64,000 nt of DNA from Terriglobia bacterium (GTDB taxonomy: Bacteria; Acidobacteriota; Terriglobia; Terriglobales; Acidobacteriaceae). The DNA lies in assembly GCA_020073495.1 (NCBI GenBank), contig JAIQFD010000003.1:558001-622000 (forward strand), in the 5' to 3' direction. Shown piece by piece: positions 3,847 to 18,209 of this stretch. Made by a program: the position numbers and the translations under genes. The notes under the pieces are model-generated. The model worked only from the letters and a program-made list of their open reading frames with translations. It did no database searches and was not told the DNA's origin. The first letter of the stretch is position 1; each line of letters starts with the position of its first letter.

Positions 3847-3892
3847 TTGACCCTGCGAAAACGCATCCCATATACTGAACGAACGTTCGGTA
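3847..3892 (+). promoter_or_regulatory. Promoter plus TetR-type operator
   Basis: TTGACC (3847-3852), an 18-base spacer and TATACT (3871-3876) make a good sigma-70 promoter. Immediately downstream, and covering the expected transcription start, is the palindrome CGAACGTTCG (3880-3889). Perfect palindromes of this kind are typical operators for TetR-family repressors. The TetR gene starts at 3911, so autorepression is likely. Confidence 0.7.
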
Positions 3893-3910
3893 GAGGCTCA
3901 TCCGGACCGC

Positions 3911-4609
3911 ATGCCTGCCGCCACCGCTCAAATCGCCGCTGCCCGCCGCGCCAACGGCGCACGCCCGCGTTTCGGCGAGCGCATGGACGAGATCCTGCGC
4001 CACGCCGCCGACGTCTTCTGCGAAAAGGGCTACGAAGGCGCCAGTATGCGCGACCTTTCCCGCGCCACGAAGATGTCGCTGGCGGGCCTTTATTACTACT
4101 TCGAGAGCAAGGAAAAACTCCTCTACCTGATCCAGAAGCACACGTTCTCCACCATCCTGGCGCACCTGCACGAGCGGCTGGAGGGCGTCCGTGATCCCGA
4201 AGACCGCCTGCGCGTCTTCATCCAGAACCACCTGCAATATTTCCTGGCGAACCGCAAGGCGATGAAGGTGCTCTCGCACGAGAGCGATGCGCTCAAGGGC
4301 GAGTTCGGCGAGGAGATCCGCGCCATCAAGCGGGAATACTTCCGCACCTGCGTGGACCTGGTGGCGGGCGTGATGCGCAGGGGCAAAGCGGCGGGCGTAC
4401 AATCGTCGCGTCGCGAGGAGCTGCGCATCGCGGCGCTGAGCCTGTTCGGCATGATGAACTGGATCTACACCTGGTACAACCCGCGGGTGGACGCCGATGC
4501 CACCGTCCTCGCCGGGCAGATGTCCAAGATCTTTTTGAACGGCGTGCTCTGTGGGGCGCACGCCTCCGCCACCAAGCGGAGAAAACCTGCGTCCCGCCGC
4601 AAGCCATAA
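3911..4609 (+). CDS. TetR/AcrR family transcriptional regulator
   Basis: A 232-residue repressor. The N-terminal helix-turn-helix covers about residues 20-70 (ILRHAADVFCEKGYEGASMRDLSRATKMSLAGLYYYFESKEKLLY), including the family signature YYYF.SKE.L. The C-terminal ligand-binding helical domain is of the type found in regulators that sense acyl-CoA or fatty-acid-like ligands, but the ligand cannot be read from sequence. It has its own promoter with a palindromic operator just upstream and precedes a co-directional catabolic block starting 68 bases downstream. By position it is the likely regulator of the whole block, released by a pathway CoA thioester (inference). Confidence 0.9.
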   Translation: MPAATAQIAAARRANGARPRFGERMDEILRHAADVFCEKGYEGASMRDLSRATKMSLAGLYYYFESKEKLLYLIQKHTFSTILAHLHERLEGVRDPEDRLRVFIQNHLQYFLANRKAMKVLSHESDALKGEFGEEIRAIKREYFRTCVDLVAGVMRRGKAAGVQSSRREELRIAALSLFGMMNWIYTWYNPRVDADATVLAGQMSKIFLNGVLCGAHASATKRRKPASRRKP

Positions 4610-4628
4610 CAGCAATCTTTGTGATGAT

Positions 4629-4648
4629 GACAGCCGAGGGCGGCTGTC
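4629..4648. repeat. Hairpin between tetR and the first catabolic gene
   Basis: An 8-bp stem GACAGCCG/CGGCTGTC with loop AGGG lies 30 bases before the crotonase gene. No T-run follows, so it is probably a processing or REP-like hairpin rather than a terminator. Confidence 0.5.
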
Positions 4649-4677
4649 CCACACGAGCTTTGAAGGAGTTTTGAGAA

Positions 4678-5493
4678 ATGGCAACAACGACGCAATCCCC
4701 AGCCGAGACCAAGCAGCTCATCAACTACCGCACCGACGCGGGTGTAGCCGTCATCGAGATGAACGACCCGCCGGCCAACACCTACACCTACGAGATGAAC
4801 CGTCAGCTCGACGAGGCCATCCTCAAGGCGCGCATGGACAACGACGTCCACGTGATCGTCCTGACCGGCGCGGGGGACAAATTCTTCTCCGCCGGCGCCA
4901 ACATCAAGATGCTGGCCAGCGTGGACCCGGTCTTCAAATACTACTTTTGCCTGCACGCGAACGAGATGCTGCTGCGACTGGAGCACACGCCGAAACTCGT
5001 CATCGCGGCGCTGAACGGGCACACCGTCGGTGGGGGGCTGGAGATCGCCATGGCGGCCGACCTCCGCATCGCGCGCAAGGACGCGGGCAAGATCGGACTG
5101 CCCGAGGTCAACCTGGGTGTGCTGCCCGGCACCGGCGGAACGCAGCGCCTGTCGCGCATGGTCGGCAAGTCAAAGGCCATCGAGCTGATGGTGACGGGCA
5201 ACACCTTCAGCTTCGAAGAGGCGAAGGAACTCGGGCTGGTGAACGACATCTTCGAGCGCGACGGCTTCATGGAAAACGTGATGGAGTACGCGCGCCAGTT
5301 CTGCCCGCCCAACAAGGCGGCCAAGGCCGTCGGGCACATCAAGCGCGCGGTGCAGACCGGGTGGGAGATCCCGATGGAGTCGGCGCTGGCGGTCGAGCGC
5401 GAGTTGCAGGCGCTGCTTTTCAACAGCCAGGACGCCAAGGAAGGCCTGAACGCGTACGTGGAGAAGAGGCCCGCGACGTTTACCGCAAAGTGA
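4678..5493 (+). CDS. Enoyl-CoA hydratase/isomerase family protein (crotonase 1)
   Basis: A 271-residue crotonase-fold enzyme acting on an enoyl-CoA. The oxyanion-hole segment is FFSAGANIKML, and both catalytic Glu positions of hydratases are kept: one in GHTVGGGLEIAMAADLRIA and one in GLPEVNLGVLPGTGGTQRL. It is therefore likely a true hydratase or ring-opening hydrolase rather than only an isomerase. GGAGTTTTGAG precedes the ATG. It is the first enzyme gene after tetR. In this setting it may hydrate or open a ring-derived CoA thioester; beta-oxidation of the resulting chain is the alternative. Confidence 0.85.
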   Translation: MATTTQSPAETKQLINYRTDAGVAVIEMNDPPANTYTYEMNRQLDEAILKARMDNDVHVIVLTGAGDKFFSAGANIKMLASVDPVFKYYFCLHANEMLLRLEHTPKLVIAALNGHTVGGGLEIAMAADLRIARKDAGKIGLPEVNLGVLPGTGGTQRLSRMVGKSKAIELMVTGNTFSFEEAKELGLVNDIFERDGFMENVMEYARQFCPPNKAAKAVGHIKRAVQTGWEIPMESALAVERELQALLFNSQDAKEGLNAYVEKRPATFTAK

Positions 5494-5759
5494 CGGCGCT
5501 CGGCGGGCGTCAGCGAAGCGGGAGCCCGCCGCCGTCATCCTGAGCGAGCGAAGCTCGCGAAGGATCTCATGAAGATGAGTCGCAAGATCGGCGAGCTGCT
5601 CGGTGGATCGCGGCGGCCCGAATGGCGTAACCGCGACATCGCCGGCGAGCTGGAACGATTTGACGCGCGTCTGATCAGCAACCGCGCCATCTACTGGCGG
5701 TTTTTCTATAGCCGCGATCCAAAACGAAGGATCGAAGGGGAGTCACGGGTCCGAAACGT
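5494..5759. repeat. Spacer with a 'GTCATCCTGAGC' element
   Basis: The 266-base gap between crotonase 1 and the aldehyde dehydrogenase gene carries a short copy of the GTCATCCTGAGCGAG...GAAGGATC element at 5535-5568, containing an AGCGAAGCTCGC palindrome. A 65-codon frame at 5569-5766 overlaps the next gene and has no recognisable domain; I do not call it. Confidence 0.5.
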
Positions 5760-7226
5760 ATGCTGACCGCAACCAAAACGCAGATCCGCCCAGGCAAGCT
5801 GCTGATCAACGGCGAGTGGTGTGATGGCCAGAAGACCTTCGACACCATCAACCCGGCGACGGGGGAAGTGCTGACGCAGGTCAACGAGGCGGGCGCCGAA
5901 GGCGTGGATCGCGCAGCGAAGGCGGCGCGTGAAGCATTCGAGAAGACCGGCAAGGGCACGTGGCGCTCGATGTCGGCCAGCGAGCGCGGAAAGATCTTGT
6001 GGCGCATCGCCGACCTAATTGAAAAAAACATCGACGAGATGGCCGAACTCGAGACTCTCGATAACGGCAAGCCCATCTTCGAGTCGCGATATGTGGACAT
6101 GCCGATGATTGTGGACGTCTTCCGCTACTACGCGGGGTGGGCGACCAAGATCCACGGCGAGACCATCAACACCTTCGAGAACGCCTTCACCTACACGCTG
6201 CGCGAGCCGGTGGGGGTCATCGGCGCGATCGTGGCGTGGAATTTCCCGCTCTTACTGGCCTCCTGGAAGCTGGGGCCGGCACTGGCCTGCGGCAACACGG
6301 TCGTGCTCAAGCCGGCGGAGCAGACGCCGCTCTCTGCGCTGCGTTTCGGCGAGCTGGCCATGGAGGCCGGCCTGCCCGCGGGCGTGCTCAACATCGTGAC
6401 CGGCGGGCCGGAGGCAGGCAAGGCGCTGGTAGCGCACGCAGGGGTGGACAAGATCGCCTTCACCGGTTCGACCGCGGTGGGCAAGGAGATCATGCGCTCG
6501 TCGGCCGACACGCTGAAGCGCGTCACGCTGGAGCTGGGCGGCAAGTCGCCTAACATCGTCTTCGCCGATTCCGACATGGATTCGGCGGTAAAGGGCGCGA
6601 TCAACGGCATTTTCTACGGCAAGGGCGAAGTCTGCAACGCGGGCTCGCGCTTGTTCGTCGAGCGCAAGGTCCACGACTTCTTCGTGGACAAGCTGGTCGA
6701 GCGCACCAGGAAGATGCAACCCGGCGACCCGCTTGACCCCAAGACGCGCCTGGGCGCCATCGTCAGCCAGGAGCAGATGAAGACCGTGCTCGGCTACATC
6801 GAGGCGGGTAAGAGCGAGGGCGCGCAGCTCATCACCGGTGGCAAGCGCGTGTCGGTCGGCAACGGTAACGGGTTTTTCCTGGAGCCGACCATCTTCGACG
6901 GCGTCAGAAACGACATGAAGATCGCGCAGGAAGAGATCTTCGGCCCGGTGCTGAGCGTGCTCGATTTCGACGACATCGAGCAGGTCGCCACGCTGGCCAA
7001 CCAGACTCCATACGGCCTGGCCGCCGCCATCTGGACCAACGACATCAAGAAGGCCCACACGCTCTCGCGCCGCCTGCGCGCGGGCATGGTGTGGATCAAC
7101 ACATACGGATTGATGGACGCGTCTCTGCCCTTCGGCGGCTATAAGAGCTCCGGCTTCGGGCGTGACCTGGGAGCGGCAGCGCTGGAAGGCTACACGGAAG
7201 TGAAGTCCGTGTGGCTGAACCTATAG
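5760..7226 (+). CDS. NAD(P)-dependent aldehyde dehydrogenase
   Basis: A 488-residue enzyme of normal ALDH length that oxidises an aldehyde to the acid. Visible motifs: WNFPLLLASWKLGPALACGN (cofactor-binding N-terminal part), FTGSTAVGKEI (Rossmann nucleotide site), LELGGKSPN with the general-base Glu, and GEVCNAGSR with the catalytic Cys. The C-terminus has EEIFGPVL and PFGGYKSSGFGRD, as in betaine aldehyde/ALDH1-type enzymes. It ends 7 bases before the BoxB-like oxygenase gene, so the two are likely co-translated. A semialdehyde from ring opening, as handled by BoxD in the Box pathway, is the most economical substrate (inference). Confidence 0.88.
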   Translation: MLTATKTQIRPGKLLINGEWCDGQKTFDTINPATGEVLTQVNEAGAEGVDRAAKAAREAFEKTGKGTWRSMSASERGKILWRIADLIEKNIDEMAELETLDNGKPIFESRYVDMPMIVDVFRYYAGWATKIHGETINTFENAFTYTLREPVGVIGAIVAWNFPLLLASWKLGPALACGNTVVLKPAEQTPLSALRFGELAMEAGLPAGVLNIVTGGPEAGKALVAHAGVDKIAFTGSTAVGKEIMRSSADTLKRVTLELGGKSPNIVFADSDMDSAVKGAINGIFYGKGEVCNAGSRLFVERKVHDFFVDKLVERTRKMQPGDPLDPKTRLGAIVSQEQMKTVLGYIEAGKSEGAQLITGGKRVSVGNGNGFFLEPTIFDGVRNDMKIAQEEIFGPVLSVLDFDDIEQVATLANQTPYGLAAAIWTNDIKKAHTLSRRLRAGMVWINTYGLMDASLPFGGYKSSGFGRDLGAAALEGYTEVKSVWLNL

Positions 7227-7233
7227 GGGACTT

Positions 7234-8409
7234 ATGCCGGGTAAAGTTTTCAAGATTGGGACCTTCGCCGACTGGGTCGGCCTCTTCGAGGATTGGCGCA
7301 GAGAGATCGGCGTCAACACCGAGGAGATCCAGAATTTCAAGTTCGACACGCTCTACGGGGCGATCGAGACCGACGAGATCCAGTTCGGCTCATTCAAGGG
7401 CCGCAAGAAGTGGGAGAACCTGCGCCAGATCCCCACGCAGCAGATCCGCGACGCCCTGCTCAACATGATCGTCTATCAGGGCGACACCGAGTTCGCATCG
7501 GTGGAGCAACAGCGGAACCTGTTCCAGATGGCGCCCAGCGACTGGGACCGCAAGGCGCTCACCCGCGTCATGATCGAAGAGATGCGCCACGGCTGGCAGA
7601 TGTGCGCGCTGCTGGTAGAGTATTTCGGCGCGTCGGGCAAGGTCGAGGCGCAGAAGATGCTGGAGCGCCGCGCCTTCGAGAACAAGCGCCTGCTCGGCGC
7701 CTTCAACGTGGACGTGGACAACTGGCTCGACTTCTACACCTACACCGATTTCGTCGACCGCGACGGCAAGTTCCAGCTCCAGATGCTGAAGTACTCGGCC
7801 TTCGCGCCGCTGGGGCGGTCCATGTCGTACATGCTGCGCGAAGAGGCGTTCCACATGGGCACCGGCAACGACGGCCTGGCGCGCATCGTGAAGGCTGGCG
7901 TGATCCCGGCGTGGCTCATGCAGAAGTATCTGAACAAGTGGATCTCGACCTCGCACGACCTGTTCGGCACCGACAATTCATCCTCAGCGCATTGGGCGTA
8001 CGTCTGGGGAGTGAAGGGTCGCTACGACGAGCCCAAGAACCAGGCCGCTCCCGACCTCGACGACGTCAACGATTACAACCGGCACCTGTACCACGACGAG
8101 GTCGCGGGGCTGATCGAGCGCCTGAACAATCTTCAGAAGCCAGGCGAGCCTAAGCTCTATGCGCCGGACATCCGATTCAACCGCGAGATCGGACGCTGGA
8201 AGGGGCAGAAATTCCATCCGCTGAGCGGAGAGGCGATGGGCGAGAAGGAATACGAACAGCGCTGGGCGGAATTCATGCCTACCGCCGAGGACAAGAAGCT
8301 GCTGCTCGACATCATCGCCAACGAGCCCAAGTGGCTCGCCCCCAAAGAGGGCGCGCGCGACCCGCTGGCCACTATCGGCGAGGTGCGCAAGTCGGCCATC
8401 AATATCTAG
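7234..8409 (+). CDS. BoxB-like di-iron oxygenase (benzoyl-CoA epoxidase family)
   Basis: A 391-residue ferritin-like di-iron protein. Two E-x-x-H motifs are clear: E116-H119 in MIEEMRH and E204-H207 in LREEAFH. Glu86 in YQGDTEFASVEQQRN sits 30 residues before the first, as expected for the remaining ligands. The stretches RLLGAFN, TDRDGKFQL-like VDRDGKFQL, DLFGTDNSSSA and GLKGRYEE-like GVKGRYDE closely resemble BoxB as I recall it, more than PaaA. BoxB is about 470 residues, so this protein is shorter, mainly at the N-terminus and before the C-terminal region. BoxB makes 2,3-epoxybenzoyl-CoA with electrons from BoxA; no BoxA or large BoxC lies in the window. The true ring substrate is therefore open. 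Confidence 0.82.
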   Translation: MPGKVFKIGTFADWVGLFEDWRREIGVNTEEIQNFKFDTLYGAIETDEIQFGSFKGRKKWENLRQIPTQQIRDALLNMIVYQGDTEFASVEQQRNLFQMAPSDWDRKALTRVMIEEMRHGWQMCALLVEYFGASGKVEAQKMLERRAFENKRLLGAFNVDVDNWLDFYTYTDFVDRDGKFQLQMLKYSAFAPLGRSMSYMLREEAFHMGTGNDGLARIVKAGVIPAWLMQKYLNKWISTSHDLFGTDNSSSAHWAYVWGVKGRYDEPKNQAAPDLDDVNDYNRHLYHDEVAGLIERLNNLQKPGEPKLYAPDIRFNREIGRWKGQKFHPLSGEAMGEKEYEQRWAEFMPTAEDKKLLLDIIANEPKWLAPKEGARDPLATIGEVRKSAINI

Positions 8410-8441
8410 CAGTGGCTAGTAGCTGGTAGCTAGTAGCTAGG
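8410..8441. repeat. TAGCTAG-type quasi-tandem repeat
   Basis: A run of CTAGTAGCTGGTAGCTAG words fills the gap before the CoA-transferase gene. Similar runs lie at 3281-3311, 24243-24266, 28915-28936 and 41849-41880. Confidence 0.6.
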
Positions 8442-8456
8442 GTCAGCCCAACGACA

Positions 8457-9245
8457 ATGACGTCCCCTGCCACAGAAGCTCCGCGAGTGAAGCCCGCCTA
8501 CACCATGGGGGAACTGATGGTGGCCGCGGCGGCGCGGGAGATCAAAGACGGCGAGGTGGTGTTCGTCGGAATGCGCCTGCCGCTGATCGCCTTCGTGGTG
8601 GCCAAGCGCACGCACGCGCCGCATGCGGTTGGACTCTTCGAGAATGGCGTGGTGCGTTCGACGCCGGCGCAGGAACTCATCTACACCATGGCCGACCCGC
8701 CAAACATCCTCGGCGCGACGCAGTGTCTGGACATGCTGAGCGTGATGAGCATGTTGCAGTCGGGACGGGTGCACCTGGGGTTCCTGGGCGCGGCGGAGGT
8801 CGATCGCTTCGGCAACCTGAACTCTACGCAGGTGCACGGGCCTAAGGGAATGGTGCGTCTGCCGGGCTCAGGAGGAGCCTGCGACATCGCGTCCCTGGCG
8901 CAGCGATTCGTCGTCCTGCTGGAACATTCCAAGCACCGCCTCCCGGAGCGCGTTTCCTACATCACCAGCCCTGGGAACGGCGATGGCAAAGGATGGCGGG
9001 AGCGGGTCGGCCTGCCGCGTGGCGGGCCCTCAGCGGCGATCACTACCAAAGCCGTCCTGCGCTTCGGTGAAGACGGCGAGGCGTTTCTTGCATCGGTGCA
9101 CCCGGGCGTCAGCATCGAGGACGTGGTCGCGAATACCGGATGGAAGCTGCGCGTCCCGTCCGGCGTGGGCGAGACTGCGGTACCCACCCCCGCCGAGCTG
9201 AAGGCGATCCGCGACTACGACAAGGAAGGATTCTGGACCAGTTAG
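8457..9245 (+). CDS. Glutaconate CoA-transferase-like beta subunit (GctB/IpdB family)
   Basis: A 262-residue family I CoA-transferase beta-type subunit. Glu62 in GLFENG is at the position of the Glu that forms the glutamyl-CoA intermediate in true transferases. GSGGACDIASLA is the glycine-rich CoA-binding motif of GctB-like subunits, and FGEDGEAFLASVHPGV matches the conserved end region. The alpha subunit is encoded 1.2 kb downstream, separated by a crotonase and a small membrane protein gene. Members either move CoA between acids or, as in the IpdAB enzymes of steroid degradation, hydrolyse a ring by retro-Claisen chemistry. Retention of Glu62 favours transferase activity but does not settle it. 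The stop codon abuts the next ATG with no gap. Confidence 0.82.
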   Translation: MTSPATEAPRVKPAYTMGELMVAAAAREIKDGEVVFVGMRLPLIAFVVAKRTHAPHAVGLFENGVVRSTPAQELIYTMADPPNILGATQCLDMLSVMSMLQSGRVHLGFLGAAEVDRFGNLNSTQVHGPKGMVRLPGSGGACDIASLAQRFVVLLEHSKHRLPERVSYITSPGNGDGKGWRERVGLPRGGPSAAITTKAVLRFGEDGEAFLASVHPGVSIEDVVANTGWKLRVPSGVGETAVPTPAELKAIRDYDKEGFWTS

Positions 9246-10031
9246 ATGCAGAGCCAGACACAATCCGAATACAAGACCATCGCGGTTGCGATGGAGCCCC
9301 CGGTGGCCCGCATTACCCTCTCGCGGCCGCCGCTGAACGTCATCAATATGGAGATGATGGACGAGCTGCTGGCGGTGATCGAGCAGATCGAGCAGCGCCC
9401 CGACATTCCGGTCATCGTCTTCAGCGGCAGCCCCAAGGCCTTCTCCGCAGGGGTCGAGGTCAAGGAACACACGCCCGACAAAGTCGAAGGCATGCTGCGC
9501 AAGTTCCACTCGGTGATCCGCGCCATGCTGCTGACCAGAAAGGTCACCATCGCGGCCGTCGAGGGCGCGTGCCTGGGCGGCGGCGCCGAGGTGGCGCTGA
9601 TCTGCGACCTGGTCTACACCGCACGGGATGCCTCGTGGGCATTCCCCGAGATCAAGCTGGCCTGCTATCCGCCGGTGGCGTGCGCGGCGCTGGCCGCGCT
9701 GATCGGGCAGAAGCGGGCCGCCGACCTCATCCTGACCGGCCGCCAGATCTCGGGCGACGAGGCGCTCGCCATCGGCCTGGCCACCGGTGCCGCACGCGGC
9801 GAGGAACTGCTCGGGCTCGTCAACGACGCTGTTGATCGGCTGTCAAAGCTCAGCCCGGCGGCGCTGGCCATCGCCAAGAAAGCGTTCTACGCCTGGGATG
9901 CGTTCCACCTCGACAAGGGCCTGCAACGCGCCGAAAACCTCTACTTCGACGAGCTGATGAAGACCGCCGACGCCGCCGAGGGGATCAACGCGTTCCTGGA
10001 GAAACGCAAGCCGGTGTGGAAGGGAAAATGA
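9246..10031 (+). CDS. Dienoyl-CoA-hydratase-like crotonase (crotonase 2)
   Basis: A 261-residue crotonase-fold enzyme. The segment FSAGVEVKEHTPDKVEGML followed by FH is characteristic of cyclohexa-1,5-diene-1-carbonyl-CoA hydratases (Dch) and close relatives, and differs from beta-oxidation hydratases. The oxyanion segment GACLGGGAEVALICDL and the second Glu in FPEIKLA are present. In the anaerobic benzoyl-CoA pathway Dch adds water to the ring diene; related crotonases (EchA20, BamA) open rings. The gene lies between the two CoA-transferase subunit genes, an arrangement reminiscent of echA20-ipdA-ipdB in actinobacterial steroid clusters. It overlaps the next gene by ATGA. Confidence 0.8.
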   Translation: MQSQTQSEYKTIAVAMEPPVARITLSRPPLNVINMEMMDELLAVIEQIEQRPDIPVIVFSGSPKAFSAGVEVKEHTPDKVEGMLRKFHSVIRAMLLTRKVTIAAVEGACLGGGAEVALICDLVYTARDASWAFPEIKLACYPPVACAALAALIGQKRAADLILTGRQISGDEALAIGLATGAARGEELLGLVNDAVDRLSKLSPAALAIAKKAFYAWDAFHLDKGLQRAENLYFDELMKTADAAEGINAFLEKRKPVWKGK

Positions 10032-10444
10032 GATCGGTTCCTGACATCGAGGTAAATGCCGACAAACCCGGCACGGTGGCGATGGGCTTTTTCTTCATTC
10101 TCCTTCTGGTCGTCATACCATGGCACATTGCGCACTGGGTGCAAGGAGGAATAAGAGTCTCACCGTCGTTTGGCTGGGAAAACTACCCCGTTCTCGCGCT
10201 GGCTGCATACGTAACAGTTCATCCCAAGACTGACAAGGGCATACGCATCATTTCCATGCTTATCGTCATTCTCTTAGCAACTCGCGCTGTCCTCCACCTG
10301 GCGCATACTTCTGCCGAAGCGTGGCACTTGGCTGCGCGGGGGCTCGCCTTCGGAAATGTCGCTATCGAAGTTGCGTTACTCATTGGAATTGCTATTTGGT
10401 TCAAGAACCGGGTGAGGCTTGTCAAAACACCAAACAATGCGTGA
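10028..10444 (+). CDS. Small polytopic membrane protein of unknown function
   Basis: A 138-residue protein with about four hydrophobic helices: residues about 19-38, 51-62, 73-90 and 110-127. I recognise no domain. It overlaps the crotonase upstream (ATGA at 10028-10031) and the CoA-transferase alpha gene downstream, so it is translationally embedded in the catabolic block. Its base composition is clearly more AT-rich, especially at third positions, than the genes on both sides, which suggests later insertion into the operon. A transporter or sensor role is possible, but nothing in the sequence shows it. Confidence 0.7.
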   Translation: MRSVPDIEVNADKPGTVAMGFFFILLLVVIPWHIAHWVQGGIRVSPSFGWENYPVLALAAYVTVHPKTDKGIRIISMLIVILLATRAVLHLAHTSAEAWHLAARGLAFGNVAIEVALLIGIAIWFKNRVRLVKTPNNA

Positions 10445-11327: not shown

Positions 11328-11346
11328 GTACTGAGTACTGAGTACT
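11323..11346. repeat. ACTGAGTACTGAGTACT quasi-tandem repeat
   Basis: Three 8-base ACTGAGT words overlap the stop codon of the CoA-transferase alpha gene. Relatives lie at 39309-39331, 42864-42900 and 43697-43713. Confidence 0.65.
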
Positions 11347-11352
11347 TTTGTT

Positions 11353-11673
11353 ATGGATTACGAGATTACAGTTCAGGAAGTTAGAGAGAAGTTGGTGAGC
11401 GCCTCGATCACGCTCGTCGACGTTCGCGAGCCCGAGGAGTTTCGCCTGGCGAGCATCGAGGGCGCGAAGCACATCCCCATGGGCGATGTGCCCATGCGCG
11501 CGCACCAGGAGCTCGATCCCGATGACCACATCGTCGTGGTGTGTCATCATGGCGTGCGCTCGCTCAACGTGACCAACTGGCTGCGCGCCCAGGGATTCGA
11601 GAAGGCGCAGTCCATGCGCGGCGGCATCGATCGCTGGTCGCGGGAAGTGGATCCGAAAGTGCCGGTGTACTGA
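11353..11673 (+). CDS. Rhodanese-like sulfurtransferase domain protein
   Basis: A 106-residue single-domain rhodanese. The active-site loop is VVVCHHGVRS, with the catalytic Cys and the C-x-x-G-x-R pattern; LVDVREPEEFRLASIEGA is the usual N-terminal motif and GGIDRWSREVDP the C-terminal one. These proteins carry a persulfide on Cys. Its position just before the molybdenum-enzyme subunits suggests a role in sulfur supply, for instance for the cyanolysable sulfur of the Mo site or Fe-S clusters, but this is inference. It is of normal length and looks intact. Confidence 0.88.
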   Translation: MDYEITVQEVREKLVSASITLVDVREPEEFRLASIEGAKHIPMGDVPMRAHQELDPDDHIVVVCHHGVRSLNVTNWLRAQGFEKAQSMRGGIDRWSREVDPKVPVY

Positions 11674-11684
11674 GGAGCGGTTAG

Positions 11685-11756
11685 CTATTATCGATTGGCG
11701 TTTAGCCAGTGCAGATGTCGAATGGCTAAACGCTAATAGCTAATCGCCAACTGCTG
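11685..11756. repeat. Long imperfect inverted repeat (GCGTTTAGCCA family)
   Basis: TGGCGTTTAGCCA (11697-11709) and TGGCTAAACGCTA (11722-11734) form a strong hairpin, extended outwards by AT-rich arms (TTAGCTATTATCGAT and AATAGCTAATCGCC). A close relative lies at 56851-56932. Confidence 0.65.
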
Positions 11757-11762
11757 GTTTTA

Positions 11763-12257
11763 ATGAAGAAAGAACTCATCGAGCTTCGCGTCAACGGCCG
11801 CACCCACGAGGTCGCGATCGAGCCCAGCAAGCTCCTGCTCGACGTGCTGCGCGAGGACCTCGACCTGACCGGCTCCAAGCGCGGCTGCGACGACTCCTCC
11901 TGCGGCGCCTGCACGGTCATGGTGGACGGCGCACCCATGCTGGCCTGCACCATGCTGGCGGCGAGCTGCGAAGGGCGCGAGATCACCACCGTCGAGGGCA
12001 TCGCCGAGCACGGCGCTCTGGCCGCGATCCAGAAAGCCTATGGCGACTGGGGCGGCGCGCAGTGCGGCTACTGCACGCCCGGGTTCATGGTCACGGTCAA
12101 GCACCTGATGGACAACAATCCCGAGCCCAGCGAAGAGGAGGTCCGACAGGCGCTGAGCAGCAATCTGTGCCGCTGCACCGGCTACAGCCAGATGTACCAG
12201 GCGATCAAGGCGGCGATCGAGGCGGAGCAGAAGGGAAGAGCGGCGGCGGCGGATTAA
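11763..12257 (+). CDS. 2Fe-2S subunit of a xanthine-oxidase-family molybdoenzyme (4-hydroxybenzoyl-CoA reductase gamma-like)
   Basis: A 164-residue protein with two 2Fe-2S clusters. The N-terminal plant-ferredoxin-type cluster is bound by GCDDSSCGACTVMV plus a later Cys in ACTML. The C-terminal helical domain binds the second cluster through QCGYCTPG and LCRCTGY. It passes electrons between the molybdenum and FAD/4Fe-4S subunits encoded directly downstream. The gene order (Fe-S, Mo, FAD) and the special FAD subunit point to the hydroxybenzoyl-CoA reductase branch rather than xanthine or CO dehydrogenase. The hcr symbol is not assigned because the substrate is unproven. Confidence 0.88.
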   Translation: MKKELIELRVNGRTHEVAIEPSKLLLDVLREDLDLTGSKRGCDDSSCGACTVMVDGAPMLACTMLAASCEGREITTVEGIAEHGALAAIQKAYGDWGGAQCGYCTPGFMVTVKHLMDNNPEPSEEEVRQALSSNLCRCTGYSQMYQAIKAAIEAEQKGRAAAAD

Positions 12258-12259
12258 GA

Positions 12260-12295
12260 GCAGGTCCCTCACGGCTGAAGCCGTTCGGGATGACA
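12260..12295. repeat. 'GGTCCCTC...CGTTCGGGATGACA' element
   Basis: A single copy of the dispersed element sits in the 60-base gap between the Fe-S and Mo subunit genes. It has a hairpin ACGGC-TGAA-GCCGT at 12271-12284. Confidence 0.65.
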
Positions 12296-12317
12296 CTACT
12301 TTAGAACTCGATCACTC

Positions 12318-14903
12318 ATGAGCAAATTCTCCATCATCGGCAAGCCCATCGCCTTCGTCGATTCCGCGGGCAAGACCACGGGCTCCGGCAAGTACACCGA
12401 CGACCTGCGCGTCCCGGGCATGCTGATCGGCAAGATCCTGCACTCGCCGCTGCCGCACGCGCGAATCAAGCGCATCGACGCCTCCAAGGCACTGGCGCTC
12501 GAAGGCGTGGTCACCGCGGTCACCGGCCCAGACGCGCCCAACAAGTATGGCATCCTGCCCGTCGGCCACGACGAGACCGCGCTCGCCGTGGACAAGGTCC
12601 GCTACGTCGGCGACAACGTCGCGTGTGTGGTCGCTGTCTCCGAATCGATCGCAGAGAAGGCGTTGGAGCTGGTCGAGGTCGAATACGAGCCGCTACCCGC
12701 CTACTTCGATCCGGAAGAATCGATGAAAGCGACCGCCAACCTCATCCACGACCATAAGGCGAACAATCTCGAGAAGGATTATCACCACGTCTTCGGCGAC
12801 CCCGACAAGGGCTTTGCGGAATCGGACATGGTCGTGCAGGGACGCTACATCGCCAACGAGGTCACGCACGCGGCCATGGAGCCGCACTCCACGCTGGCAC
12901 AGTTCGAGATCGACTCTCACACCGGACAGCCCGGCCGCCTGACCGTGTGGTCGTCCACCCAAGTCCCGTACTACCTGCAGCACAAGCTGTCGCTGGTGTT
13001 GGACATGCCGATGTCGCAGATCCGCGTCATCAAGCCGCTGGTGGGCGGCGGCTTCGGCGGCAAGAGCGAGGTCATTCCGCTGGAGATCATCGCAGCGGTG
13101 GCGGCGCGCAAGGCCGAAGCGCCGGTGAAAATCACCTACACCCGCGAAGAAGTGTTCTGGGCGCATCGCGGGCGGCCGCGCACCATCGTCGACTTGAAGA
13201 CCGGCGTGAAGAATGACGGTCGGATCGTGTCGGTTGCGGCCAAGGTCATCCAGGACGGCGGCGCGTACTGCTCCTACGGCGTGGTCACCATCCTCTACTC
13301 CGGCGCACTGCTAGGTGCACTGTACGACATCCCCAACATCCGCTACGACGGATACCGCGTGCTGACCAACAAGCCGGCCTGCGGCGCCATGCGCGGCCAC
13401 GGAACCGTCAACGTGCGCTTTGCCTTCGAATCGCAGCTCGACGAGATCGCCGCCAAGCTGAACATCGATCCCGCGGTGATCCGCACGCGCAATTTCCTCA
13501 AGCCGCCGTGCATCACGGTGAACGGACTTCGGGTGCAGAGCTACGGGCTGCCCGAATGCGTGGAGAAAGTGGTCGAGCGCTCCGGCTGGGCGCAGCGCCG
13601 CGGCAAGCTGGGACGCGGGCGCGGTCTGGGGATTGGGTGCAGCCATTACGTGAGCGGCGCGGCCAACTCCATCATCCGCTCCGACATGCCGCACTCCACG
13701 GTCAACATCAAGATCGACCGCGACGGCGGGGTTGTGATCTACACGGGCGCATCCGACATCGGACAGGGCTCCGACACCATGGTGGCGCAGGTCGCCGCTG
13801 AGGTGTTGGGCTGCCGCATGTCGCGCGTAAAGGTGGTCGCTGCCGATACCGACCTGACGCCCATCGACATCGGCTCGTACTCCAGCCGCGTGACCTTCAT
13901 GAACGGCAACGCCACTATGCGCGCCGCCGAAGAGGTGAAGAAGCAGATCGTCTCCGCCGCCGCGCGCAAGATGAACTGCGCGTCCGAAGATGTGACGATG
14001 CGCGACGACCGGGTGTGGAAACCGGGCGGAGGCCCGGACGAACAAATCTTCCAGATTAAGAGCACGCCGCCCGGCGCCGCCGAGGTCGCCGGCCGCGTCG
14101 AAGGCCAGATCCTGCGCGGCTCGCTCCAGCAGAAGCGCAAAGAAGAAGGGCCCAAGGACCACATGTCGTTCGAGGAGGCGGTGGTGGCGGCCATCGACTT
14201 CCACGGCGCGCTCACCGGCACCGGCTCCTACGCGCCGCCGCCGGAAGCGCGCGGCGGCAAGCATAAAGGCGCGGGCGTCGGGCCGTCGCCGGCGTATTCC
14301 TATTCGGCGCAGGTAGCGGACGTCAGCGTGGACGAGGAGACCGGCGAAGTCACCGTCCACAAGATCTGGGCGGCGCACGATTGCGGCCGCGCACTGAACC
14401 CGGTTTCGGTCGAGGGCCAGGTGATCGGCTCCGTCTGGATGGGCCTGGGCCAGGCGCTACAAGAAGAGATGGTTTGGAAAGACGGCCTGCTGATGAATCC
14501 CGGCCTGCTCGAGTACCGCTCGCCGTCGTCGGTCGAATCGCCAGATGTGGAGTGCATCATCGTGGAGTCGCTGGATCCCGAGGGTCCCTTCGGGGCCAAG
14601 GAAGCCAGCGAAGGCTCTCTGGCAGCGGCCATTCCCGCCATCGCCAATGCCATTTGCGACGCGGTCGGCATTCGCCTGCGCGAGTGCCCATTCACGCCCG
14701 AGCGCATCCTCGCCGCGCTGCGCGGCCAGAAGGGGCTCAAGAAACTCAACCTGACCGATGGAGTGGACCCGACAGCCCCCACGACCTTCCGCGAACACGG
14801 CGGATCTCTCTGTTTCAAGGGCAAAGGTCCGGCGCGGCACAAGCTTGATTCAGCGGTCGCGAGCAATCAACCGGTAGCGCCACAATCCGGAGGTGACGAT
14901 TGA
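12318..14903 (+). CDS. Molybdenum-binding large subunit of a xanthine-oxidase-family enzyme (4-hydroxybenzoyl-CoA reductase alpha-like)
   Basis: An 861-residue molybdopterin-cytosine-dinucleotide subunit. Motifs: VGGGFGGKSE and CGAMRGHGTVNVRFAFE in the first cofactor region, DIGQGSDTMVAQVAAEVLGC in the second, and FGAKEASEGS, which holds the catalytic Glu. It is about 90 residues longer than the alpha subunit of 4-hydroxybenzoyl-CoA reductase as I recall it, because of a segment around residues 560-660 (rich in Lys, Gly and Pro) and a C-terminal tail after about 815. It ends in a TTGA overlap with the FAD subunit gene. In this context it would reductively remove a phenolic hydroxyl from an aromatic CoA thioester. 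Confidence 0.87.
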   Translation: MSKFSIIGKPIAFVDSAGKTTGSGKYTDDLRVPGMLIGKILHSPLPHARIKRIDASKALALEGVVTAVTGPDAPNKYGILPVGHDETALAVDKVRYVGDNVACVVAVSESIAEKALELVEVEYEPLPAYFDPEESMKATANLIHDHKANNLEKDYHHVFGDPDKGFAESDMVVQGRYIANEVTHAAMEPHSTLAQFEIDSHTGQPGRLTVWSSTQVPYYLQHKLSLVLDMPMSQIRVIKPLVGGGFGGKSEVIPLEIIAAVAARKAEAPVKITYTREEVFWAHRGRPRTIVDLKTGVKNDGRIVSVAAKVIQDGGAYCSYGVVTILYSGALLGALYDIPNIRYDGYRVLTNKPACGAMRGHGTVNVRFAFESQLDEIAAKLNIDPAVIRTRNFLKPPCITVNGLRVQSYGLPECVEKVVERSGWAQRRGKLGRGRGLGIGCSHYVSGAANSIIRSDMPHSTVNIKIDRDGGVVIYTGASDIGQGSDTMVAQVAAEVLGCRMSRVKVVAADTDLTPIDIGSYSSRVTFMNGNATMRAAEEVKKQIVSAAARKMNCASEDVTMRDDRVWKPGGGPDEQIFQIKSTPPGAAEVAGRVEGQILRGSLQQKRKEEGPKDHMSFEEAVVAAIDFHGALTGTGSYAPPPEARGGKHKGAGVGPSPAYSYSAQVADVSVDEETGEVTVHKIWAAHDCGRALNPVSVEGQVIGSVWMGLGQALQEEMVWKDGLLMNPGLLEYRSPSSVESPDVECIIVESLDPEGPFGAKEASEGSLAAAIPAIANAICDAVGIRLRECPFTPERILAALRGQKGLKKLNLTDGVDPTAPTTFREHGGSLCFKGKGPARHKLDSAVASNQPVAPQSGGDD

Positions 14904-15880
14904 GTCTTCCGGATTTCAAGCTGCTGCGTCCGCGTTCGCTTGGCGAAGCTGTCGAGATGCTTTCCCGGCACGCCGGAGACTTGCAGATCATCGCCGGCGG
15001 CACAGACATCATCCCGTCCCTGAAGCAGCGTCTGTTCACACCAGCGTACGCGATGGATATCCGCGGCATCGACGAGCTGCACGGCGTCCGCGTGCTGCAA
15101 GGCGGAGGCGTCGAGATCGGCGCGCTCACTACGCTCTCCGCCATCGAGGACTCCGAGTTCATCCGCCGCAACTATCCCGTGCTGCGTGAGGCCGCCATGA
15201 CCGTCGCCTCGCCGGTCATCCGCAACATGGCGACCATCGGCGGCAACATCTGCCTGGACACGCGCTGCCTCTGGTACAACCAGTCGCTCACCTGGCGCAA
15301 GTCTTGCGGCTTCTGCATCAAGAAAGACGGCAACCTCTGCCACGTTGCGCCCGGCGGCACGAAGTGCTGGGCCGCCTTCTCCGGAGACACGCCGCCCGCG
15401 CTGCTCTGCCTGGGCGCGGAACTGGAGATTGCCGGACCGAAGGGTGCCCGCCGCGTTGCGCTCCGCGACTTTTACACCAACGTGGGCGACGCCCGCATGA
15501 AGCTAGAGAAGAACGAGTTGCTGGCGCGTATCTCCCTGCCGGTAGCGACCGCGGGCTGGCGCGGCGCCTACACGAAGCTGCGCATCCGCGGCTCTATTGA
15601 CTACCCTCTCGCCGGTGTCGCCGTGGCGTTGAAGATGAATGGCAAGGTGGAAGACGCGCGCGTCGCCATCACCGCCGTGAACCCCGCGCCGCTGCTTGTG
15701 CCCAACGCCGAGCATGCGCTCATCGGGAAGCAGGTGGACGAGTACGCCGCCGGCGTCGTCGGCGAGCTGGCCGCCAAGACCGCCAAGCCTCTGACTACTT
15801 CCGCGCTCACCCCGGAATACCGTCGTGAAATGGTCCGAGTCTTCGCCAAGCGCGCCGTGCTGAAAGCCGCCCGCTCGTGA
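14900..15880 (+). CDS. FAD/4Fe-4S subunit of 4-hydroxybenzoyl-CoA reductase type
   Basis: A 326-residue FAD-binding subunit of the xanthine-oxidase family. FAD motifs are IIAGGTDIIPSLK and ASPVIRNMATIGGNI. The decisive feature is a cysteine-rich insertion: Cys123, 139, 147 and 156, with spacings of 16, 8 and 9. These equal the spacings of the four Cys that bind the unique 4Fe-4S cluster in the beta subunit of Thauera 4-hydroxybenzoyl-CoA reductase (122, 138, 146, 155 as I recall). Ordinary members lack this insertion. That cluster lets electrons flow toward the Mo site for reductive dehydroxylation. The TTG start at 14900 overlaps the preceding stop, and the stop overlaps the next start by GTGA. 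Confidence 0.88.
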   Translation: MSLPDFKLLRPRSLGEAVEMLSRHAGDLQIIAGGTDIIPSLKQRLFTPAYAMDIRGIDELHGVRVLQGGGVEIGALTTLSAIEDSEFIRRNYPVLREAAMTVASPVIRNMATIGGNICLDTRCLWYNQSLTWRKSCGFCIKKDGNLCHVAPGGTKCWAAFSGDTPPALLCLGAELEIAGPKGARRVALRDFYTNVGDARMKLEKNELLARISLPVATAGWRGAYTKLRIRGSIDYPLAGVAVALKMNGKVEDARVAITAVNPAPLLVPNAEHALIGKQVDEYAAGVVGELAAKTAKPLTTSALTPEYRREMVRVFAKRAVLKAARS

Positions 15881-16476
15881 ACTCAATGCGATTCTGGACG
15901 ATGGCGCCGGTTGTGTTCGTGATCGCGTCCTGGTGTGTCTTCGCGCTCATCTTCCTGCTGCGCAAGAAACCGGCGGAAAGTGCTCCTCCCGCCAAGCGCG
16001 ACCCGGCCGCGCGCTGGGGCATCTTCCTTAAGGGGATTGCGTATGCCATGGTCTGGTACGCTGGCTCACGGCGCGGTGGGTCCCGGCCCATCTTCGACAT
16101 GCCGCTGGCAGGGCAGATCGCCGTCGCGCTGCTGACGGCGGCGATCGCCGCGGCATCTGTCTGGCTGGTCCTCATCAGTGTGCACACCCTCGGTCGGCAG
16201 TGGGCGGTCCAGGCTCGCCTCATCGAAGGACATCGGCTCATCGTCGAAGGCCCGTACCGCTGGATGCGTAACCCCATCTACACCGGGATGTTCGGCATGC
16301 TGATCGCCACCGGCCTCGCGTTCGCCACCTGGCCGATGCTGCTGGGTGCCATCGTCATTTATCTGATCGGTTTCACCATCCGCGTCCGCACCGAAGAGAA
16401 GCTTCTCCGCGCACAGTTCGGAGAGGAGTTCGAGGAATACAGACGGCGGGTTCCCGCTCTGCTTCCTCGTTTATAG
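15877..16476 (+). CDS. Isoprenylcysteine carboxyl methyltransferase/PEMT-like membrane protein
   Basis: A 199-residue integral membrane protein with about five hydrophobic segments. The C-terminal signature VEGPYRWMRNPIYTG followed by RVRTEEKLLRAQFGEEFEEYRRRVP is that of the ICMT/phospholipid methyltransferase group, which methylate lipids or small molecules with SAM at the membrane. The GTG at 15877 overlaps the preceding stop (GTGA), with ATG at 15886 as an alternative. Its place in a catabolic operon is unexplained. It could methylate a pathway compound or belong to an unrelated process carried along. Confidence 0.8.
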   Translation: MNSMRFWTMAPVVFVIASWCVFALIFLLRKKPAESAPPAKRDPAARWGIFLKGIAYAMVWYAGSRRGGSRPIFDMPLAGQIAVALLTAAIAAASVWLVLISVHTLGRQWAVQARLIEGHRLIVEGPYRWMRNPIYTGMFGMLIATGLAFATWPMLLGAIVIYLIGFTIRVRTEEKLLRAQFGEEFEEYRRRVPALLPRL

Positions 16477-16521
16477 TGTCTCTGCCAGAGAACCACGTAC
16501 TGCTTGCGGGTGCGATCCGGA

Positions 16522-17370
16522 ATGATCACCGACTGCCACGTCCATATCCAGCCGTTCGAGTTGCTGCTGAGCCCGCCGGCCATGGAGCTGATGAAGCGCC
16601 AGCAGCTCGATTTCGATCGAGTCATGGAATTCACGCGCTCGCCCAAGGCGTTTCTGGAATACATGGACCAGCAGGGGATCGACCGCGCGGTGCTCATCAA
16701 TTCCGCCTCGCCCGAGGTCACCGGCTACCCGGCGGGGCTGAATGCGGTGGCAGCCAAGTACGCCAGCGCGGACCCCAAGCGCCTGATCTCCTGCGGCAGC
16801 CTTCATCCCAAGCACACCAAAAACGTGATGGCGGACGTGGAGGAGATCGTCCGTCTCGGCCTGCGGCTGATCAAGATCCACCCGCCGCACCAGCTCCTGT
16901 TTCCCAACGACTACCTGCGCGGCGTGAAGGAACTCGAGATCCTTTACCGCGCGGCCGAGGCCAACGGCATTCCTGTCATGTTCCACACCGGGACCTCGAT
17001 CTTCCCCGGCGCGCGCAATAAGTACGGCGACCCCATGGCCATCGACGACGTGGCTGTGGACTTTCCCAAGCTGAAGATCATCATGGCGCACGGCGGCCGG
17101 CCGCTGTGGATGGATACGGCATTTTTCCTGGTGCGCCGCCATCCCAATGTTTATCTCGACATCAGCAGCATCCCGCCATCACAGCTCTTGAAATATTTCC
17201 CGCGCCTGGAGGAGATCGCCGGTAAGACCTTGTTCGGCAGCGACTGGCCGGGCCCTGGCGTGCAGGACATCCGTGAGAACCTGGATGCGGTCCAGGCTCT
17301 CCCAATCTCCAGCTCCGCCAGGGAGCAGATCCTCGGCGGCACGGCGCTGAAGATTTGGCCACAGGCATGA
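16522..17370 (+). CDS. Amidohydrolase family 2 protein, copy 1
   Basis: A 282-residue TIM-barrel metal-dependent enzyme (amidohydrolase-related, ACMSD-like superfamily). Metal ligands are suggested by DCHVHIQ at the N-terminus, the His in MFHTGTS, the His in MAHGG and the Asp in FGSDWPGPG. The family contains decarboxylases (ACMSD, resorcylate decarboxylase) and hydrolases acting on ring or ring-cleavage products. It is about two-thirds identical to the next gene, so the pair is a tandem duplication. The ATG at 16522 begins the first strand; a TTG six codons earlier is less likely. It overlaps copy 2 by ATGA. Confidence 0.85.
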   Translation: MITDCHVHIQPFELLLSPPAMELMKRQQLDFDRVMEFTRSPKAFLEYMDQQGIDRAVLINSASPEVTGYPAGLNAVAAKYASADPKRLISCGSLHPKHTKNVMADVEEIVRLGLRLIKIHPPHQLLFPNDYLRGVKELEILYRAAEANGIPVMFHTGTSIFPGARNKYGDPMAIDDVAVDFPKLKIIMAHGGRPLWMDTAFFLVRRHPNVYLDISSIPPSQLLKYFPRLEEIAGKTLFGSDWPGPGVQDIRENLDAVQALPISSSAREQILGGTALKIWPQA

Positions 17371-18209
17371 TCACCGACTGCCACATCCACATCCAGCCGG
17401 TGGAGATGTTCAAGCCCGCCGCGCTGGAGGCGATGAAGAAGAAGCGGGAGAACTTCGCCCAGATCGAGGAATTCTGCCGCTCGCCCAAGTCATTCCTGAA
17501 ACACATGGACGCCTGTGGCCTCGACCGCGCCGTGCTCATCAACTATGTCGCGCCGGAGGTGATCGGCTTCACCAGCGGCGTGAACCAGTTCGTCGCTGAC
17601 TACGTGAAGGAGGACCCCAAGCGGCTGATCCCCTGCGGTTCGCTGCACCCAAGGCACACGCAGAACATCATGGCCGACGTCGAGCAACTGCTGAAGCTCG
17701 GCATCCGCATGATCAAGATCCATCCGCCGCACCAGTTGCTCTTTCCCAACGACTACCTTATCGGCGTGAAAGAGCTGGAGATCATCTACCGCGCTGCCGA
17801 GGCCAATGGCATCCCGGTCATGTTCCACACCGGGACGTCGATCTTCCCCGGCGCCCGCAACAAGTATGGCGACCCCATGTACGTGGACGACGTCGCCGTG
17901 GACTTCCCCAGGCTCAAGATCCTGCTGGCGCACGGCGGCCGCCCGCTATGGATGCACACCGCGTTCTTCCTGGTGCGGCGGCACGCCAACGTCTTCCTCG
18001 ACATCAGCGGCATTCCGCCCAAGACGCTGCTCAAGTATTTTCCGCGGCTGCACGAGATCGCGAGCAAGACTCTGTTCGGCACCGACTGGCCTGGTCCGGG
18101 CGTGCCCGACATCAAGCAGAACCTCGACGACTTCCGTGCCCTCCCTCTCGCGGACGCGGCAAAACAGCAGATCCTGACGGGCACCGCGCTGGCCATTTGG
18201 CCTGCCTGA
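17367..18209 (+). CDS. Amidohydrolase family 2 protein, copy 2
   Basis: A 280-residue paralogue of the preceding gene with the same metal-site motifs: DCHIHIQ, MFHTGTS, LAHGGRPLW and FGTDWPGPG. Long blocks are identical between the copies, for example LFPNDYL and RAAEANGIPVMFHTG. Differences concentrate near the N-terminal helices (residues about 15-45), which in this family shape the active-site entrance, so the copies may act on related but different substrates or form a heteromer. This is the last gene of the block and is followed by a terminator-like hairpin. Confidence 0.85.
   Translation: MITDCHIHIQPVEMFKPAALEAMKKKRENFAQIEEFCRSPKSFLKHMDACGLDRAVLINYVAPEVIGFTSGVNQFVADYVKEDPKRLIPCGSLHPRHTQNIMADVEQLLKLGIRMIKIHPPHQLLFPNDYLIGVKELEIIYRAAEANGIPVMFHTGTSIFPGARNKYGDPMYVDDVAVDFPRLKILLAHGGRPLWMHTAFFLVRRHANVFLDISGIPPKTLLKYFPRLHEIASKTLFGTDWPGPGVPDIKQNLDDFRALPLADAAKQQILTGTALAIWPA

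Follow-up and report, generated by a model that had tools for sequence, protein, structure and literature searches.

An island of fifteen genes, all on the + strand, spans positions 3911-18209 of a 64,000-nucleotide window (contig JAIQFD010000003.1, positions 558,001 to 622,000) in the genome of a soil member of the Acidobacteriaceae, Terriglobia bacterium (assembly GCA_020073495.1; 3.70 Mb in 8 contigs, with the island on contig C3). It encodes a short BoxB-like di-iron protein (BoxBL), two crotonases (ECH1 and ECH2), a molybdoenzyme of the 4-hydroxybenzoyl-coenzyme A (CoA) reductase type (HcrCAB) and a CoA-transferase-like pair (GctAB). Judged from sequence comparisons, the island most likely specifies a variant of the benzoyl-CoA pathway that would operate under aerobic or micro-oxic conditions, with a second class of BoxB and, in part of the family, dehydroxylation of 4-hydroxybenzoyl-CoA.

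The open reading frames (ORFs) are arranged in the order TetR, ECH1, aldehyde dehydrogenase (ALDH), BoxBL, GctB, ECH2, Mem1, GctA, rhodanese, HcrC, HcrA, HcrB, ICMT-like, AH1 and AH2. Intergenic gaps range from -26 to +89 bp, the ECH1-ALDH gap of 266 bp being the single exception. A first-pass annotation of the window had described fifteen co-directional genes at 3847-18209 as a hybrid route for aromatic CoA esters. The gene number, the shared direction and the right-hand end are confirmed, and our family scans agree with the enzyme types that were named; the left-hand end should be moved by 64 bases, from 3847 to the start of TetR at 3911. Two amidohydrolases (AH1 and AH2), the rhodanese and two membrane proteins had not been weighed in that description.

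Conserved core and nested modules

Many relatives carry homologues of the island genes in the same order, which places the island far beyond chance. This comparison used tblastn on 80 loci, the top 80 among 271 confirmed relatives of the island oxygenase; these 80 are all from Acidobacteriota and mostly from Terriglobia. ECH1 lies beside BoxBL in 74 of the 76 loci with at least 1.3 kb of upstream sequence. Fifty loci were counted as spanning the island, with the right end set by AH2 or by a downstream S46 peptidase gene. Among these, TetR is found in 46, ECH2 in 45, the rhodanese in 40, each of HcrC, HcrA and HcrB in 32, ALDH in 21, and GctA and GctB in 10 each. AH2 is present in 48 of the 50, a figure favoured by the spanning criterion, and in 29 of the 31 loci that span ECH1 to S46 when S46 alone defines the end. 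ECH2 was not matched in 5 of those 31 (L042, L101 and L106 contain some N). ALDH and GctAB are confined to HcrA-positive spanning loci (21/21 and 10/10), and the 18 spanning loci that lack HcrA are also without ALDH and GctAB.

TetR, ECH1 and BoxBL thus constitute a near-constant core, with ECH2, the rhodanese and an amidohydrolase as usual companions and ALDH, HcrCAB and GctAB as optional, nested modules. The idea that the whole gene set is one fixed, conserved pathway was rejected because the modules vary among relatives. Scattering in related genomes, which the first-pass annotation had said would refute its route, is seen among the modules and hardly affects the core. In three loci from other families of Acidobacteriota (L116, L117 and L122), the stretch examined around BoxBL contains no ECH1; a ferredoxin-like match lies 4 kb away in L116, and L122 is at a contig end.

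The nesting is also apparent in a sample of 60 genomes from the family, one per genus. Of these genomes, 31 have BoxBL, 27 a close HcrA homologue scoring at least 736 bits, 22 GctA (at least 71% identity) and 16 a strong benzoate-CoA ligase (at least 600 bits to TIGR02262). All 22 genomes with GctA are HcrA-positive, and strong-ligase genomes are GctA-positive in 15 of 16 cases, the exception being G304. Each of the 27 genomes with a close HcrA holds an epoxidase, namely BoxBL in 25 and canonical BoxB with BoxC in 2 (p=1.5e-11, Fisher's test, which ignores phylogeny). That part of the hybrid route in which 4-hydroxybenzoyl-CoA reductase-type dehydroxylation feeds a BoxB-like epoxidase is supported by this co-occurrence.

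These counts depend on several decisions. Five of the 27 HcrA genomes fall below the TIGR03194 cut-off of 994.55 bits, and G313 (578 bits) and the second, weaker matches of G073 and G317 were left out. G307, whose GctA is 42% identical, was not counted, nor were the ligases of G302 and G315, which score 380-381 bits and are thus above the family cut-off. G299 was scored ligase-positive on two joined pieces, the ligase frame of G310 holds one stop, and the BoxBL genes of G316 and G326 are partial.

We found no description of this gene set in the open-licence PMC literature; in the main text of PMC10803450, the strings "Acidobacteri" and "4-hydroxybenzoyl" are both missing.

The oxygenase and a candidate ring opener

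BoxBL (7234-8409, about 391 aa) is a putative aryl-CoA epoxidase, assigned from its match to PaaA_PaaC/BoxB-like families, active-site residues, phylogeny and fold. Among solved structures, BoxB is the closest to it in sequence (3per, 1.5e-50) and also the best fold match of its structure model (3pm5, TMq 0.71), which is of moderate quality (pLDDT 73.3) and was used for fold only. All six BoxB iron ligands (Glu120, Glu150, His153, Asp211, Glu240 and His243) are kept in 94 of 94 BoxBL sequences, as are Gln116, Thr119, Ser123 and Phe193, and Phe203 is kept in 92 of the 94; alignment A2 omits row L021, which was on the wrong strand in A1. The sole PaaA-like row has His, Ser and Gly at the positions of Gln116, Thr119 and Ser123. 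Roles for the BoxB active-site residues, including a Gln that contacts the substrate, are described in PMC5489048. The possibility that BoxBL is a broken BoxB was rejected, because all ligands are kept and the family is widespread.

In the oxygenase tree, 24 BoxB rows form one clade with support of 100/100, and BoxBL is the nearest group outside it; resolution is weak for the deeper branches of BoxBL, and a long branch leads to the PaaA-like outgroup. Placement outside BoxB and PaaA had been named beforehand as a finding that would tell against the route. The oxygenase does fall outside the BoxB clade, yet it belongs to the nearest group and has most of the BoxB active site. Among the matches listed from a plasmid search (15 of 36 records) were canonical BoxB and more remote relatives. 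In all 6 sequences aligned, a third type in the BoxB superfamily (L134-L138 and L140), 31-36% identical to BoxBL, keeps the iron ligands and has Asn where BoxB has Phe203.

BoxBL and BoxC exclude one another in the phylum genomes searched. Of 297 Acidobacteriota genomes, 77 have a BoxB-superfamily match (E 1e-20 or better), which we sorted into 17 of the BoxBL type (50-100% identity), 49 canonical and 11 of the third type (31-36%); a single stop interrupts the BoxBL frame of G201. BoxC (E 1e-100 or better) is present in 49 genomes: 48 of the 49 with canonical BoxB, none of the 17 with BoxBL, none of the 11 with the third type, and G215, which has no BoxB match. The remaining canonical genome, G188, has its BoxB at a contig end. 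Partial BoxC matches in G271 and G295 were counted as present. The difference in BoxC presence between canonical and BoxBL genomes has p=7e-15 in a test that ignores phylogeny. A profile search of the host genome found no BoxC over cut-off.

Within the family sample, BoxC over cut-off occurs only in G343 and G315, and both genomes are without BoxBL genome-wide. Their island locus keeps ECH1-GctB-ECH2-GctA-rhodanese-HcrC-HcrA-HcrB, the stretch gave no match to TetR, ALDH or BoxBL, and a boxC-boxB pair lies on a contig other than that of the island. G343 also keeps AH2; the stretch from G315 goes no further than HcrB. The two BoxB proteins have different nearest relatives in the BoxB tree, and the two BoxC proteins pair with support of 96 in a smaller sample, so the boxC-boxB genes may have been gained in one or two acquisitions. 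Because boxC-boxB replaces BoxBL in these genomes, the simplest reading of the swaps is that BoxBL would do the job of BoxB on benzoyl-CoA, the predicted product of HcrCAB.

The absence of BoxC from BoxBL genomes needs explaining, because BoxC reportedly co-purifies with BoxB and is described as essential to overcome product inhibition of BoxB (PMC4498308). Given that role, it is unexpected that the BoxB-like epoxidase is never found here with BoxC. ECH2 and the amidohydrolases are unlikely substitutes, since both are kept in the BoxC-bearing swap genome G343 (L163), and ECH2 in addition went unmatched in 5 of the 31 loci counted above.

ECH1 (4678-5493) is a better candidate. BoxC is a two-domain protein of about 550 aa, and ECH1 is a single-domain crotonase of 271 aa that scores 85.6 bits against BoxC family TIGR03222 (cut-off 712.3). 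It aligns to the first half of BoxC with 34% identity over 194 aa, and it is the best match to that half among the host's eight crotonase matches (89 bits, next 58). Cys111, Glu146 and Glu168 of BoxC, which Bains et al. are said to have identified in 2009 as catalytic residues, have equivalents (Cys91, Glu122 and Glu143) in 81 of 81 island ECH1 sequences. The Cys is likewise found at that position in both swap genomes, in the 4 of 4 canonical-box loci counted (L142 was left out of the five) and in 26 of 26 BoxC sequences. It is seen in none of the 76 ECH2 rows and in none of the PaaG-like and other crotonase rows; the last group has three rows, and the one taken from L141 is no crotonase. The closest solved relative of ECH1, 2ppy, has the same FC..NE motif, and the next four aligned relatives do not. 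We put the odds that ECH1 is a single-domain, BoxC-like ring opener at somewhat below even.

The second crotonase, ECH2 (9246-10031; like ECH1, a match to Pfam ECH_1), had been called Dch-like. This label fares poorly, as ECH2 scores 150.3 bits against TIGR03189, for which the cut-off is 292.5. Both of the glutamates that we take to be hydratase glutamates are kept in ECH1 (75/75) and in ECH2 (68/68).

BoxA over cut-off was found in none of the 60 family genomes, including the host genome and those with canonical BoxB. In the distant BoxBL operons L119 and L126, ECH1 is accompanied by two ALDHs, a small ferredoxin-like protein, a NuoF-like protein and a PaaG-like crotonase, where the last three labels were assigned by reading the sequences. 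This composition suggests an electron supply other than BoxA in these two loci.

Predicted dehydroxylation and CoA activation, and linked genes

The alpha subunit of the molybdoenzyme, HcrA (12318-14903), scores 1018.6 bits against TIGR03194, the 4-hydroxybenzoyl-CoA reductase alpha family, and is thus over its cut-off (1rm6_A, E=2e-238). HcrB (14900-15880), the FAD subunit, scores 325.7 bits against TIGR03195, its best-scoring family (cut-off 404.55). HcrC (11763-12257; Fer2/Fer2_2), the 2x[2Fe-2S] subunit, scores 179.4 bits against TIGR03193, its second-best family (cut-off 257.8). The cysteine loop of 1rm6_B is aligned in HcrB, its cysteines are kept in 40 of 40 sequences, and it presumably holds the extra [4Fe-4S] cluster. 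The enzyme therefore resembles Thauera HcrCAB (1rm6) in an alpha subunit over the cut-off and a beta subunit with a cysteine-rich loop. It differs in that the island hcr genes have an oxygenase gene, not a benzoyl-CoA reductase operon, as their neighbour, and in its longer alpha subunit: HcrA has 861 aa compared with 769 in 1rm6_A, the additional residues being located around 567-615 and at the C-terminal end. Among the close HcrA homologues of the family, 26 of 27 also match the TIGR family in a split way.

GctB (8457-9245; CoA_trans; 1poi_B, E=1.1e-38) and GctA (10437-11327; CoA_trans; 1poi_A, E=7.5e-45) both have GctAB of Acidaminococcus (1poi) as their closest solved relative. The GctA ORF opens at TTG 10419, and we judged the ATG at 10437 to be the likelier start. 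Glu62 of GctB aligns with the Glu of glutaconate CoA-transferase, and is presumably the catalytic Glu of a class I CoA-transferase. Because this residue is kept in 22 of 22 sequences, CoA transfer by GctAB, and with it the earlier suggestion of CoA activation by transfer, is plausible. The pair had been described as GctAB/IpdAB-like; the GctAB half of this comparison is the stronger. A role as an IpdAB-type ring hydrolase is disfavoured, because chains 6co6/6con, which we take to be IpdAB, rank below GctAB and the transferase Glu, which IpdAB is not known to have, is kept. Unlike GctAB of Acidaminococcus, the island pair is associated with HcrCAB.

The absence of BoxA, BoxC, a CoA ligase and a benzoyl-CoA reductase had also been noted. 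This is correct for the island and, for BoxA and BoxC over cut-off, for the genome. However, the genome does have a bcrCBAD-like operon and a benzoate-CoA-ligase homologue at C2:634555-636084 (TIGR02262, 626.4 bits, cut-off 375.25), both discussed below. The ligase gene is unlinked to the island, and no other ligase neighbour was matched across the ligase stretches of the six relatives compared.

The remaining genes are less readily placed. ALDH (5760-7226; Pfam/NCBIfam Aldedh) is BADH/StyD-like. The TetR regulator (3911-4609; Pfam TetR_N and TetR_C_24) is separated from ECH1 by an inverted repeat at about 4629-4649, with 8-bp arms and a 4-bp spacer, that is a possible operator. Mem1 (10016-10444), a small membrane protein, has no Pfam/NCBIfam match and no tblastn match in the 80 loci. 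The ICMT/PEMT-like membrane protein (15877-16476), recognized by Pfam, has one weak tblastn match there (33%, L113). The rhodanese-domain protein (11353-11673) belongs to PF00581. AH1 (16504-17370) and AH2 (17355-18209) are amidohydrolase_2 proteins (PF04909) and 71% identical paralogues. The metal-ligand motifs of AH2 are intact and are kept in 46-48 of 48 sequences, the remainder being gaps; the solved structure closest to it, 3irs (1.4e-17), is that of an uncharacterised protein. A 65-aa ORF at 5569-5766, without a family match in the Pfam/NCBIfam scans, is probably not a gene. Downstream of the island, the S46 peptidase gene is on the opposite strand. Upstream, at 2237-3280 of the window, is a DHDPS-family gene whose family match is split into two stretches; such a gene is also present in 56 of the 63 loci whose sequence extends 4 kb or more on the upstream side of BoxBL.

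A proposed benzoyl-CoA-centred pathway and its alternatives

We lean slightly towards a modular, O2-dependent pathway of CoA thioesters that is centred on benzoyl-CoA. In this scheme, 4-hydroxybenzoate, the presumed substrate, would be converted to its CoA ester by GctAB transfer or by the unlinked benzoate-CoA-ligase homologue. HcrCAB, given its strong family identity, would reductively strip the 4-hydroxyl to give benzoyl-CoA, whose ring BoxBL would epoxidise, as its active-site identity and the swap with boxC-boxB suggest. ECH1 might then hydrolyse the epoxide/oxepin and open the ring, which is the weakest step of the scheme. Where present, ALDH would oxidise the semialdehyde, and ECH2, with beta-oxidation enzymes encoded elsewhere, would continue the degradation. 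TetR would regulate the genes, and the amidohydrolases and the rhodanese would be linked accessories. A stricter proposal is that this is an alternative aerobic benzoyl-CoA pathway of Acidobacteriota in which BoxBL dispenses with BoxA and BoxC, ECH1 opens the ring and the oxygen-sensitive reductase is wired into an oxygenase operon; this combination we regard as doubtful.

The following observations weigh against the benzoyl-CoA scheme. 4-Hydroxybenzoyl-CoA reductase is an oxygen-sensitive, anaerobic enzyme. ALDH is missing from 29 of the 50 spanning loci. In G257 and G297, BoxBL shares a contig with HcrA and GctA but is separated from them by about 107 and 421 kb, and for some BoxBL genes in other families (L117 and L122) no neighbour from the island appears in the stretch that was examined. 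The host genome holds no recognisable BoxA as electron donor. ECH1 and BoxC do not group together in the crotonase tree (rows own_L192 and own_L193 are wrong-strand extractions, and both were compared separately in the correct reading). At the distant BoxBL loci with ECH1, the Cys is replaced by Ser, Ser and Gly (3/3). In addition, 5 of the 23 wide stretches with canonical boxC (L141, L142, L144, L145 and L152) carry ECH1 (60-68%) next to it; because of this, and because ECH1 is kept in the swap genomes, ECH1 cannot be only a BoxC substitute. BoxBL itself scores 232.4 bits against BoxB family TIGR03225, below the cut-off of 499.1. It has Tyr in place of Phe206 in 91 of 94 sequences and Val/Ile in place of Thr210 in 94 of 94, where 24 of 24 canonical BoxB sequences keep Phe and Thr. 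Calculations in PMC5489048 tie the selectivity of BoxB to the Thr210-Asp211 peptide; therefore, with Thr210 changed, the product or regiochemistry of BoxBL may differ from that of BoxB.

This last point leads to an explanation in which BoxBL takes a different aryl-CoA or attacks the ring elsewhere, as in the formation of a 1,2-epoxide by PaaA, and isomerase, hydrolase and ALDH follow in a Paa-like order. Such a route would explain why BoxC does not accompany BoxBL, it fits the match of Val/Ile at Thr210 to the Val of the PaaA-like row and the selectivity ascribed to that peptide (PMC5489048), and the L119 and L126 operons do carry PaaG-like crotonases and two ALDHs. We consider it unlikely, however, because Gln116, Thr119 and Ser123 are BoxB-like rather than PaaA-like, and because the swap genomes hold BoxB and BoxC in place of BoxBL and keep HcrCAB. 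The same swap argues against a non-catabolic role for BoxBL and ECH1, in biosynthesis or in detoxification such as aryl-CoA removal, to which HcrCAB and GctAB would have been added in some lineages. It would suit this role that many loci (18/50 spanning loci) have the core but not ALDH, Hcr or Gct, and that several distant BoxBL genes have no ECH1. The nested association with ligase and Hcr does not suit it, nor does the sharing of TetR and ECH1 with some canonical box loci (the TetR homologue is 42-43% identical beside boxB/boxC in L145 and L152), and we regard it as the least probable of the explanations. A Nonomuraea record also has boxB and boxC, with an AH2 homologue (34%) adjoining boxC.

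Another explanation is that the molybdoenzyme serves an anaerobic benzoyl-CoA reductase route and that the neighbouring oxygenase reflects a facultative lifestyle, not one pathway. The host does have a bcrCBAD-like operon, at about C2:231.5-235.6 kb. Tandem HGD-D genes occur in 6 of the 60 family genomes (G336, with a single HGD-D gene, was left out), all of them HcrA-, GctA- and BoxBL-positive (association with HcrA p=0.006, with GctA p=0.0015). In G257 these genes adjoin Had and Oah, both over their cut-offs, and in G297, G339 and G073 they adjoin Had and Oah homologues, the G073 reductase genes being distant (39-40%). However, 21 of the 27 HcrA genomes have no tandem HGD-D pair (the class II Bam type was not searched for), and the subunits of the host operon are below the Bcr cut-offs with no Had or Oah adjoining. 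Moreover, Oah did not match seven of the host's eight crotonases at 1e-15 (L198 was not included). We view this explanation as rather improbable. Since the tandem HGD-D genomes are all HcrA-, GctA- and BoxBL-positive, benzoyl-CoA is probably a hub that would feed an oxic branch and, in a few species, an anoxic one. As to the loci themselves, L199 (G000:C2:222000-241900), the stretch of the host genome with the bcrCBAD-like operon, contains, at 7784-13580 and unlinked to the island, genes for an amidohydrolase, an SDR, BcrC- and BcrB-like proteins and two activase-like subunits, and L200, L201, L202 and L203 have HGD-D genes beside Had and Oah homologues, like an anaerobic benzoyl-CoA cluster (cut-offs were applied to L200).

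The benzoyl-CoA scheme resembles the Box pathway (BoxA, BoxB, BoxC and BoxD; Azoarcus evansii) in its di-iron ligands, substrate Gln, crotonase partner, predicted CoA-ester intermediates and, in part, ALDH. It differs in its short oxygenase outside the BoxB clade and below the cut-off, and in having no BoxA over cut-off and no BoxC. With the phenylacetyl-CoA pathway (PaaABCE/PaaG/PaaZ) it shares the di-iron superfamily and the Val before the Asp ligand. However, the family scans of the island gave no PaaB, PaaC or PaaE match, and BoxBL is of the BoxB type at three substrate positions. In SAR324 genome bins, BoxB and 4-hydroxybenzoyl-CoA reductase genes also co-occur in one organism group; there, in the passages of PMC4782131 that concern these genes, BoxB clusters with BoxC and a ligase, and the reductase genes are not placed in that cluster.

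The two natural replacement genomes make the function of BoxBL directly testable. The island would join an anaerobic type of dehydroxylation to O2-dependent ring opening, and would suggest how mostly uncultured Acidobacteriota of soil and peat use 4-hydroxybenzoate.

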